From Caldifarciminota bacterium (GTDB lineage: Bacteria; Hydrothermota; Tepidihabitantia; SM23-42), in NCBI GenBank assembly GCA_020341755.1, contig CP070834.1, positions 1,051,537-1,084,794 of the forward strand: a stretch of 33,258 nt of DNA. The letters run 5' to 3'. Every line of letters begins with the position of its first letter. Within the stretch, counting starts at the first letter, position 1. This document shows, one piece after another, positions 8,653-12,701 of the stretch. The notes beneath the pieces are model-generated. The model ran no database searches and had not been told where the DNA came from. It worked only from the letters and a program-made list of their open reading frames with translations. A program made the translations under genes and the position numbers.

Positions 8653-8680
8653 TTGATTTTTTTAAAATATGACGTATAAT
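8653..8680 (+). promoter_or_regulatory. Promoter of the UDP-GlcNAc dehydrogenase gene
   Basis: TTGATT (8653-8658), 16 bp, TATAAT (8675-8680). Transcription should begin near 8687, just before a GAGGAGAA Shine-Dalgarno (8691-8698) and the ATG at 8706. The -10 box covers the in-frame ATG at 8679, which argues against that earlier start. Confidence 0.7.
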
Positions 8681-8705
8681 GGTCGGTCAAGAGGAGAAGA
8701 ACATA

Positions 8706-10004
8706 ATGGAAACTTTGATAAAAAATAAAAAAGCCCTCGTCGGCATTATCGGACTCGGCTATGTGGGTCTTCCGATCGCCGTCAAGATCGCCCAGAAAGG
8801 CATGAAGGTAATGGGATTTGACATCAATGCGAAACGTGCAGCCCAGGTCAACCGAGGTTATTCATATATCGATGACGTGACCCGTGCTGAACTGAAAGCC
8901 GTCACTGCCAAAAAACGACTCGTCGCCACGACCAATTTCAATGGACTGAAAAAGTGCGATATCATCCTTATCTGCGTTCCGACACCGGTCGATAAGAACA
9001 AAGAACCCGATCTCGAGCCGGTACTCAACAGCACCTATGCCGTGCAAAAGAGGCTCAGAAAAGGACAGCTCATCATCCTGAAGAGTACCACCTATCCGGA
9101 AACCACCGAAGGAAAGATACTGCCGATCCTGCAGGAAACAGGATTGAAAGTAGGAAAGGATTTTTATCTTGCGTTCTGTCCCGAACGCATCGATCCGGGC
9201 AACAAGAAATTCACCGTGATAAACACACCCACGGTCATCGGAGGAGTGACCGCGAAATGCACCAGACTCGCGGCTCTTTTTTACCGTAATTTCGTCAGTC
9301 CGGTCTGTTCGGTGTCATCTCCCAGAATCGCCGAGATGACAAAACTGCTCGAGAACACCTTCAGGAACGTGAATATCGCCCTGATTAACGAGTTTGCCCA
9401 GCTCTGCGAGCGCATGGGCAACATCGATATCTGGGAGGTCATTGACGCCGCCAGTACAAAACCCTTTGGATTCATGCCGTTCTATCCCGGTCCTGGTGTC
9501 GGCGGTCACTGTATTCCCATCGACCCTTATTATCTCTCCTGGAAAGCGCGTGAATACGATTTTCACACGGTGTTCATCGAACTCTCGGCTCGCGTTAATG
9601 AAGACATGCCCTATTTCGTCGTCAACAAGACCATCGACGTCCTGAGTGCAGCAGGCGTATGCCCTGGCAAGGCAAAGGTTCTTCTTCTCGGAATGGCGTT
9701 TAAAAGAAATATTGGTGACCTGCGGGACAGTCCGGCCCTCAAGGTCTTTGAAATCATGCAAAAACGTATAAAAACAGTCCGGTACAATGATCCGCATGTA
9801 CCGAAATTGTACTTGCACGGAAAGACGATACGTTCAGTGCCGTGTACTGCTCGGCATCTGAAAAAATACGACCTCGTAGTCATTCTCACTAACCACTCAG
9901 CGTATGATTATGATATGATCGCCAAACACTCCAGGCTCATCATCGACACGCGCGGGGTCATAAAAAAGAAACTTCGAAAGGTAAAAAAACTGGGTGCTGG
10001 TTAA
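8706..10004 (+). CDS. Nucleotide sugar dehydrogenase, UDP-GlcNAc 6-dehydrogenase (WbpA) type
   Basis: 432 residues from the chosen start. It oxidises the C6 hydroxyl of a UDP-sugar to a carboxylate with two NAD+, supplying uronic acids for surface polysaccharide. The N-terminal Rossmann motif is GLGYVGLP (16-23). STTYPETTEGK and CPERIDPGN follow, and the catalytic Cys269 sits in GVGGHCIP. The PFYPGPGVGGHCIPIDPYY pattern is closer to WbpA/WecC-type UDP-GlcNAc or UDP-ManNAc dehydrogenases than to UDP-glucose dehydrogenases, but substrate cannot be fixed by eye. The start was chosen for its Shine-Dalgarno at 9-base spacing and because the upstream ATG lies in the -10 box. It is apparently monocistronic; no glycosyltransferases are next to it. 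Confidence 0.93.
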   Translation: METLIKNKKALVGIIGLGYVGLPIAVKIAQKGMKVMGFDINAKRAAQVNRGYSYIDDVTRAELKAVTAKKRLVATTNFNGLKKCDIILICVPTPVDKNKEPDLEPVLNSTYAVQKRLRKGQLIILKSTTYPETTEGKILPILQETGLKVGKDFYLAFCPERIDPGNKKFTVINTPTVIGGVTAKCTRLAALFYRNFVSPVCSVSSPRIAEMTKLLENTFRNVNIALINEFAQLCERMGNIDIWEVIDAASTKPFGFMPFYPGPGVGGHCIPIDPYYLSWKAREYDFHTVFIELSARVNEDMPYFVVNKTIDVLSAAGVCPGKAKVLLLGMAFKRNIGDLRDSPALKVFEIMQKRIKTVRYNDPHVPKLYLHGKTIRSVPCTARHLKKYDLVVILTNHSAYDYDMIAKHSRLIIDTRGVIKKKLRKVKKLGAG

Positions 10005-10148
10005 TACACGACCGTGAGGACATATTACTGATCGATCCTCCGGACTCCAACAACAGAATTGTTCCTGTATAAAGGCTTCCGGCCGCGACCCGCAGGTCGC
10101 GACCGGGAGGGGAAATGTTTCTAAATTTTAGACAGGGATAATAGTCTT
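10005..10148 (-). ncRNA. Candidate structured small RNA (unassigned)
   Basis: A perfect minus-strand promoter at 10155-10182 has no gene behind it. The predicted RNA from about 10148 leftward has no convincing ORF. It contains a small hairpin UCUAA-AAU-UUAGA, then a 12-pair GC-rich stem (10079-10106) capped by a C(UGCG)G loop of the UNCG class, then a possible AACAA/UUGUU hairpin and a GAGGA/UCCUC pairing. One stem pair is G-U in this orientation but A-C on the other strand, which favours the minus strand as the functional one. The 3' end is uncertain: a run of seven U on the minus strand (9982-9988) inside the dehydrogenase gene could end it. No known RNA family is recognised. Confidence 0.45.
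10079..10106 (-). repeat. GC-rich inverted repeat with UNCG-type loop
   Basis: On the minus strand CCGG-U-CGCGACC, loop UGCG, GGUCGCG-G-CCGG forms a 12-pair stem with one G-U pair. A UGCG loop closed by C-G belongs to the very stable UNCG tetraloop class. No T run follows on either strand, so it does not look like an intrinsic terminator. Confidence 0.7.
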
Positions 10149-10154
10149 CGGTTT

Positions 10155-10182
10155 ATTATAACAGATTTTCTAATTTTGTCAA
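10155..10182 (-). promoter_or_regulatory. Orphan consensus promoter driving the candidate RNA
   Basis: Minus strand TTGACA (10177-10182), 16 bp, TATAAT (10155-10160): a perfect match with the spacing used throughout this window. No ATG lies near the predicted start at about 10148, and nothing on the minus strand up to the dehydrogenase gene looks protein-coding. Confidence 0.7.
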
Positions 10183-10256: not shown

Positions 10257-12701
10257 TTATGTATCGACGAACAGGTCCTGCTGTGTCAATTTGGCACGCT
10301 TCATACGGCGCATACTGAAAACCTCGCCCTCTTCAAAATCACGCAACACGGCTTTTGCCCGGTCGATAACCGATGCCGGTAATCCGGCAAGCCGCGCCAC
10401 CTGAATACCGTATGATTGATCGCTCGGTCCCGGACTCAGTTTGCGCAGGAATATTATCTCATCCCCCCATTCCTTGACCAGGAAATTATAATTTTTCACT
10501 CCCTTAACGAACCCGTCGATACGGGTTAATTCATGGAAATGGGTTGCAAAGAGCGTTCTCGGCTTCTTGTTCTGCCGCAGGTACTCGACTACTGCCCATG
10601 CCAGTGCCAGACCATCATAGGTCGATGTGCCCCTGCCAACCTCATCGAGAATGACCAGACTCCGTTCCGTCACGTTGTTAAGGATATTTGCCGTTTCCAT
10701 CATTTCGGCAAGGAAGGTACTCACCCCACGCGAAATATCATCGCTAGCTCCGATGCGGGTGAATATTTTATCGGCGATTCCTATCTGCGCCTGTTTCGCC
10801 GGCACAAAACTCCCGACCTGTGCCATGATCGTGATCAATGCGGTCTGCCTGAGGTACGTCGATTTACCGGACATATTGGGACCGGTGATTATGAGGATCT
10901 GATTTTCGTCCCGGTTCATGACGACATCGTTCGGTATATAGGATCCCTTCTCGAGGATCCTTTCCACGACCGGATGTCTCCCTTCACGTATGGAGATTTT
11001 CCCATCGGTCATGATGCCCGGTCGTACATAGTTACTTAGTACTGCGTTCTGAGCAAACCCTTGAAGTACATCGAGCAGAGCCAAAGCCCTCGTCGTATCG
11101 AGCAACGCGTCAACCTGCTCGGCGATTTCTTCACGCAGAGTATTGTACAAACTATGCTCAAGGTTCTGAATTTTTTCCTCTGCGCCGAGAATCTTCTGTT
11201 CGAATTCTTTTATCTCGGGAGTATAGAACCGCTCGGCATTAGTTAAAGTCTGTTTCCTCAGATAATGGGGTGGCACAAGATGAAGATTTGTTTTCGTCAC
11301 CTCTATGTAGTATCCGAAGACGGAATTATAACCGACTTTCAACGACGTGATGCCGGTCTTCTTACGCTCGCTGTGCTCGAAGTTCAAGAGCCATGTCTTG
11401 CCGCCGTGAGCGACCTTTCTCAATTCATCAAGCTCCGCCGAATACCCTTCACGGATCACACCGCCCTGTTCCAGGGCCGCCGGCGGTTCGTCAACGAGTG
11501 CTTTTTCGATCCTGCCGACGACGTCATCAAAGGTGTGGATTCGTTTGCAAAGACTCCCCACCACAGTGCTTTCGCACTCACCGATCAACTCCTTAACTTT
11601 GGGGTAGTATATGAGAGATTCTTTCAATGCCACCATTTCGCGCGGGAGTATCCTGCGGCATGCCAAACGAGCCGTGATGCGTTCGACATCTCGAATAGGT
11701 TTCAACACCTCCCGTAATTCCTGGCGGAGGAATTCCTTGTTTCTCAACTCGTCGACTCCGTCGAGTCGTTCCTCGATCGCATCGACCTCAACGAGAGGCT
11801 CCAGCAATTCGCGGCGCAATCTTCTCTTACCGAATGGCGTCATGCAGCTGTCCATTGCCCAAAGAAGTGTTCGTTCTTCATGACCGCCGGCACTCAGGAA
11901 TATCTCAAGGTTGCGGCGCGTGGCGGCATCGAGGTACAATGTTTCCCCGGTATCATACAGCACTACTCTGTTGATGTGCGACAGCATCGATTTCTGTGAT
12001 TCTTCGATGTAATACAAGAGGGCTCCGGCAGCGGCGAGCCCCCGTTTGGACTCCTCGACACCGAAACCGTCCATCGTAACCACCTTGAAATGATCGGTCA
12101 GTTTCTTGTAGGCAATTTCATAAATAAAATGATACCCATCGAGATACGTTAGCGGTATATCGGTTTCCACGTGTATGCCCTCAGGGATAACGATCTCCCT
12201 GACCTCTTTACGCATAAGCGTTTCTTGCAGCTGCGCCATCGCCAACTCACCGCACGAGAACTCACCGGTCGTCACATCGCAGAAAGCGATCCCCACGTGC
12301 TGTTCATCAGGCAGACAGGCTGCTACACACAGCGACTTCTTCTCGTCGAGCAGTGAAGTCCTCAGTATTGTTCCGGGCGTGATCACTTCAACAACGTCCC
12401 GTGCCACCAATTTTTTACCTTTACTTGCCGGTTCCAGCTGTTCACATATGGCGATCTTCAAACCACGTTTTACGAGTTTCGCAATATAACTGTCGGCTGC
12501 CTTGACCGGTACGCCGGCGAGCGGGACCTTCGTCCCCTTCTGAATGGTTTTTGCAGTAAGGGTGATACCCAGATACGTACTCGCTACCTTGGCATCATCA
12601 TAGTAGAATTCATAAAAGTCCCCAACACGAAATAAAAGAAGCGTGTCTTTGTATTTGTTCTTTATCTGTTGGTATTGTTCAAGGAGCGGTGTCAGCTGCA
12701 T
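10257..12701 (-). CDS. mutS: DNA mismatch repair protein MutS
   Basis: 814 residues, a little shorter than the E. coli protein. It recognises mismatches and small loops and signals repair through MutL. The mismatch-binding domain has GDFYEFYYDDA with the Phe29-x-Glu31 pair. The ABC-type ATPase has Walker A GPNMSGKS (607-614), VILDEVGRGTSTYDG as Walker B and signature region, and the FATHFHEL switch. The last residues contain QQDLF (807-811), which fits a sliding-clamp binding motif placed almost at the C-terminus. The start has only a weak upstream GTAGGG, and no clear promoter is seen in the 102-base gap before it. It may be read through from the lapA-lapB-SPOR transcript. No mutL is in the window. 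Confidence 0.97.
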   Translation of the reverse strand: MQLTPLLEQYQQIKNKYKDTLLLFRVGDFYEFYYDDAKVASTYLGITLTAKTIQKGTKVPLAGVPVKAADSYIAKLVKRGLKIAICEQLEPASKGKKLVARDVVEVITPGTILRTSLLDEKKSLCVAACLPDEQHVGIAFCDVTTGEFSCGELAMAQLQETLMRKEVREIVIPEGIHVETDIPLTYLDGYHFIYEIAYKKLTDHFKVVTMDGFGVEESKRGLAAAGALLYYIEESQKSMLSHINRVVLYDTGETLYLDAATRRNLEIFLSAGGHEERTLLWAMDSCMTPFGKRRLRRELLEPLVEVDAIEERLDGVDELRNKEFLRQELREVLKPIRDVERITARLACRRILPREMVALKESLIYYPKVKELIGECESTVVGSLCKRIHTFDDVVGRIEKALVDEPPAALEQGGVIREGYSAELDELRKVAHGGKTWLLNFEHSERKKTGITSLKVGYNSVFGYYIEVTKTNLHLVPPHYLRKQTLTNAERFYTPEIKEFEQKILGAEEKIQNLEHSLYNTLREEIAEQVDALLDTTRALALLDVLQGFAQNAVLSNYVRPGIMTDGKISIREGRHPVVERILEKGSYIPNDVVMNRDENQILIITGPNMSGKSTYLRQTALITIMAQVGSFVPAKQAQIGIADKIFTRIGASDDISRGVSTFLAEMMETANILNNVTERSLVILDEVGRGTSTYDGLALAWAVVEYLRQNKKPRTLFATHFHELTRIDGFVKGVKNYNFLVKEWGDEIIFLRKLSPGPSDQSYGIQVARLAGLPASVIDRAKAVLRDFEEGEVFSMRRMKRAKLTQQDLFVDT

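Follow-up and report, generated by a model that had tools for sequence, protein, structure and literature searches.

A predicted small RNA gene with an invariant C-rich segment, conserved downstream of mutS in a WOR-3 lineage

Why should a promoter that matches the consensus perfectly stand between two convergent genes with no gene behind it? The question is raised by a stretch of 33,258 nucleotides (the window) from the genome of a Caldifarciminota bacterium, here G000, a single contig of 2.38 Mb in which the relatives of the mutS gene in the window belong to candidate division WOR-3/Candidatus Stahlbacteria. On the minus strand lies mutS (10257-12701), and from the other side a gene of the UDP-glucose/GDP-mannose dehydrogenase family (8679-10004, plus strand) converges on it. 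The original prediction placed a perfect minus-strand TTGACA-N16-TATAAT in the gap, and this was confirmed at 10182-10155: the -35 box TTGACA (10177-10182) and the -10 box TATAAT (10155-10160) match the consensus at 12 of 12 positions across a spacer of 16 nt, and the -10 box is followed by the discriminator AAAC (10151-10160 with the box). Nearly all homologues retain both the -35 box and the -10 box with its discriminator.

A perfect promoter is ordinary in G000, not rare. The pattern TTGACA-N15-19-TATAAT matches this genome 223 times, as against 2 matches for the reversed pattern, nearly all of the perfect promoters among the matches listed have a spacer of 16 rather than the usual 17, and 6 of 30 that were sampled have no ORF of at least 90 amino acids beginning within 300 nt. 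Since perfect promoters are this common, it is conservation in relatives, not rarity, that shows the feature to exceed chance. The AAAC after the -10 box was absent at the 30 other perfect promoters sampled, and is not a general property of G000 promoters. At about 7 of these 30 a long ORF begins 5-8 nt past the -10 box, suggesting that many mRNAs in this WOR-3 genome are leaderless.

When 100 related genomes were searched at the DNA level, the core of the locus turned up in nearly every member of the same family, at 80-100% identity, and in a sister family. From 23 homologues, the window's own included, a covariance model (R1) was made; searched against 147 genomes of the phylum, it matched once in G000 (E 1e-15) and found the RNA gene in 21 of 23 same-family genomes, G000 among them, and in all four genomes of the sister family, in one of which (G025) it is divergent. 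The two same-family genomes that lack a match are 66% and 53% complete. Elsewhere among the 147 genomes there was a single marginal match, and the RNA was not matched in viral contigs. Each genome has a single true locus: additional R1 matches arise from reading the palindrome in reverse, and the two matches in G017 apparently represent one locus at two contig ends.

An alignment of the homologues over 120 nt before and 110 nt after the start of the core gave a sharply bounded footprint, consisting of the -35 box, the -10 box with AAAC, the motif UGUCnAA (here CUGUCUAA, 10128-10135, minus strand), a UAG that belongs to a conserved UAGA (10120-10123, minus strand), the invariant UUUCCCCUCCCGG with a hairpin, and a short T-run. 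In most genomes the core lies 39-42 nt from the -10 box, so that the RNA body has its own promoter at a conserved distance, as would be expected of a stand-alone small RNA gene. Outside the footprint the alignment showed no conservation; this includes 10005-10070, where the original prediction had drawn smaller hairpins; these are not conserved and fall past the point at which conservation of the RNA stops. The predicted RNA therefore spans about 10148, a start set by the -10 box, to about 10070, an end set by the T-run, or some 80 nt (10070-10148, minus strand). Over about 40 nt it is nearly invariant, against a divergence of 25-29% between the neighbouring MutS proteins. Up to 25 genomes keep promoter, C-rich segment, hairpin and short T-run together, in the predicted orientation, and from these comparisons we regard it as very likely that 10182-10070 on the minus strand holds a single-copy small RNA gene that stands alone and whose product is about 80 nt long.

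The hairpin itself begins some 50 nt past the -10 box and is the predicted 12-pair GC stem with a C(UGCG)G loop of the UNCG class (10079-10106, minus strand; in plus-strand coordinates, arms 10079-10090 with 10095-10106 and loop 10091-10094). It is present both in the predicted fold and in the homologues, and it resembles an intrinsic terminator, with a weak U-run (10071-10073) after it. The predicted transcript folds at -49.3 kcal/mol compared with -37.7 +/- 3.9 for shuffled sequences (z -3.0; 1 of 200 shuffles equalled it). All rows of the alignment contain the stem, and 13 of the 23 have at least four Ts after it, the window having only UUU. The loops UGCG, UCCG, UUCG and CUCG follow a YNCG pattern. 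A U-G pair that was said to form only in the minus-strand RNA, the plus strand having C.A in its place, is real and occurs without exception in the 23 homologues, and altogether 31 G-U cells of the stem alignment are found on the minus-strand RNA. Two further positions change there from G-C to G-U and one from C-G to U-G, each of which would be a mismatch on the plus strand, and one pair is changed on both sides, from A-U to G-C, in three sister-family sequences. Strand-specific and compensatory changes of this kind are what one would look for in a stand-alone small RNA gene; they are few overall, and the near invariance of the stem limits the amount of covariation, so that the structural support consists of strand consistency and one compensatory pair, the pair possibly being a single event. 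Conservation of stem pairing and of the promoter in relatives had been named at the outset as the test of the prediction, and both were found. Some but not all species form a first (5') hairpin, about half of whose cells are paired; it is not claimed.

These stem variants bear on whether the locus is transcribed at all. If the locus were instead a DNA element, for example a site of recombination or protein binding, the single copy per genome, the inverted repeat and the invariant core would be accounted for, but the variants make G-U pairs on one strand only, the YNCG pattern of the loop is kept, and a promoter and a T-run flank the whole, which leaves this explanation barely credible. It is also very unlikely that the hairpin is a mere transcription terminator for mutS, or for both convergent genes, with an incidental promoter. 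In most genomes the hairpin does lie about 60-450 nt past mutS, between convergent genes, and a T-run does follow it, as a terminator would have it; however, the promoter and the C-rich segment are about as strictly conserved as the hairpin, at nearly fixed spacing, a terminator does not require an invariant sequence, and the sequence of the element is kept beside unrelated genes.

The neighbourhoods of the RNA differ in this way. Gene order within the family is mutS, RNA, convergent dehydrogenase; mutS is the upstream, same-strand neighbour in most members, and in several genomes the aligned loci show the -35 box overlapping the mutS stop codon. The sister family has an M24 peptidase gene and recO as neighbours, and in a further genome (G008) the RNA is flanked by yet other genes. 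The gene downstream is convergent in most genomes and varies among lineages. Comparison of these loci shows the predicted RNA to be independent of its neighbours, its sequence being kept with all of them, and antisense action on the dehydrogenase is therefore not its general role. The idea that the RNA is antisense to the 3' end of the dehydrogenase mRNA, regulating that convergent message in cis, has in its favour the convergent layout of nearly all family members in which the downstream side is assembled. It loses its footing as a conserved role beside the M24 peptidase gene, recO and the neighbours in G008, and conservation ends before the dehydrogenase 3' end is reached; we consider it very improbable.

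Other readings of the locus were set aside. A leader or riboswitch of a downstream gene would call for a constant co-directional gene, but the downstream gene is mostly convergent and lineage-variable, so that the RNA is not a leader in general. A short plus-strand ORF, suggested by GGGAGGGGAAATG with its resemblance to a Shine-Dalgarno sequence plus ATG, was seen by eye to have an unconserved frame among the relatives and to lack the ATG in some of them. A short minus-strand ORF (UUG-UCN-AAN-NNN-UAG) is kept in most family members, but it is without a Shine-Dalgarno sequence and is open in the sister family. In G025 (L141, 1435-1610) the divergent hairpin, without the C-rich segment, stands between a promoter and a gene whose product we take, from reading its protein sequence, to be AAA/Lon-like, and it is possible that the hairpin was co-opted there as a leader. 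Two further loci differ around the promoter: in L044 a promoter is retained after mutS without an RNA body, and a palindromic repeat that L044 has downstream of mutS (after 7439) recurs in G001 (L012, 1-170), where it directly precedes the -10 box of the RNA in place of the -35 box.

What the RNA might do is suggested by its C-rich segment, UUUCCCCUCCC (10105-10115, minus strand), which is identical in 23 of 23 aligned sequences, is our proposed pairing region, and has its final CC within the stem. The segment is complementary to GGGAGGGGAAA(UG), and the C-rich stretch of the RNA is the complement of GGGAGGGGAAAUG. By inspection, UUUCCCCUCCC is complementary to a strong Shine-Dalgarno sequence; if the preceding CA of GGGAGGGGAAAUG is counted in, the complementarity extends to a Shine-Dalgarno sequence plus start codon. 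In the window RNA it is predicted to be largely unpaired (0.65 to 0.78), and in about half of the species it is predicted to be paired; a possible 3' partner, AGGGG after the stem, is present in some species only. That the segment is invariant though this partner is not general favours pairing with ribosome-binding sites.

Searches for sites, both exact and with one mismatch, gave no credible conserved mRNA target. In G000, GGAGGGGAAA occurs at the RNA locus only, with no other exact target site. The best one-mismatch start-codon site, and the sole convincing one, is at porA, which was rejected as a target; the overlapping porD reading frame constrains the site and accounts for it, and outgroups lacking the RNA have it too. 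A depletion of the complementary 10-mer in RNA-bearing genomes was weak, with a reversed control that differs in Shine-Dalgarno content, and was not used. Hfq (PF17209), a common but not obligatory companion of trans-acting small RNAs, was not found among the 31 genomes searched, the control being positive in 5 of 14.

The best explanation as a whole is a stand-alone small RNA gene acting in trans by pairing of its C-rich segment with ribosome-binding sites, to which we would assign a probability of about 0.5; the base-pairing mechanism on its own we put at a little under an even chance. RNA polymerase with the main sigma factor would start near 10148 and stop past the hairpin, which would stabilise the 3' end of the RNA. 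The UUUCCCCUC stretch just 5' of the hairpin would act in trans by base-pairing to ribosome-binding sites rich in purines (GGAGGGGAAAUG-like), and this pairing would prevent ribosome loading without a need for Hfq. Several observations count against this explanation: the site searches yielded no target, Hfq was not found in the 31 genomes, the C-rich segment is predicted to be paired in about half of the species and is missing in G025, the hairpin sequence is nearly invariant, beyond the need of a terminator or stabiliser, and the U-run in the window is weak. The RNA gene of the original prediction stands on its co-conserved promoter, C-rich segment, hairpin and T-run, and as to the regulatory role that went with it, the RNA is probably a regulator.

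The near invariance of single strand and stem alike is what the main rival would explain, namely a housekeeping or protein-binding RNA whose C-rich strand and hairpin bind one protein, as a decoy or in a small ribonucleoprotein, with no mRNA seed. The single copy, the near-consensus promoter and the site searches that yielded no conserved mRNA target are likewise in keeping with it. Against it, comparison of the neighbourhoods found no gene for a partner protein adjoining the RNA in all genomes, the C-rich part is lost in G025, and the complementarity to a Shine-Dalgarno sequence plus AUG would have to be a coincidence; we judge it unlikely, though a serious contender. A bolder form of trans action is a long shot: a single highly expressed RNA could be a lineage-defining global regulator in which the invariant CCCCUCC mimics the anti-Shine-Dalgarno end of 16S rRNA, competes for ribosome-binding sites and sorts Shine-Dalgarno-led from leaderless mRNAs. 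If true, this would sit in a branch of the phylum where Hfq was not detected.

It remains to place the proposed trans-acting RNA among known ones. The search of Rfam covariance models that had been suggested for the locus matched no family; nothing in the window reached the gathering cut-offs, and the best match under lax filters (E 0.2) is a chance match. The small SRP RNA and 6S RNA are likewise short, conserved and stand-alone, but neither matched at the RNA locus, and both identities were rejected, since most relatives have separate genes for both, and G000 has one for SRP RNA. 6S RNA (RF00013) was not found in G000 itself; of 20 further genomes searched within the order, 18 have it. For WOR-3/Stahlbacteria, a literature search found no described regulatory RNA and no small-RNA paper. 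An RNA common to two families of one order would offer a specific starting point for the study of post-transcriptional control in an uncultured phylum.

In the UCCC-motif small RNAs of Firmicutes (RsaE/RoxS, LhrC), single-stranded C-rich segments bind ribosome-binding sites, often independently of Hfq; the present RNA likewise has a C-rich segment, and it has no sequence family match. Closest in manner are the alpha-r14/'cuckoo' small RNAs of Alphaproteobacteria (NfeR1, CcsR), with which a C-rich anti-Shine-Dalgarno motif is held in common. In alpha-r14 an ultraconserved motif of this kind, CCUCCUCCC, is carried in several hairpins (three) with variable stems (PMC10746234). The present RNA instead carries CCCCUCCC, not CCUCCUCCC, once, directly 5' of a single main stem that is nearly invariant, and it comes from an unrelated phylum and is without an Rfam match. 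Since motif and architecture differ, it is not filed under alpha-r14/cuckoo. We rate it as a new family of a known kind; bacterial small RNAs have repeatedly put C-rich anti-Shine-Dalgarno sequences to use, and this one would be a further, independent instance.
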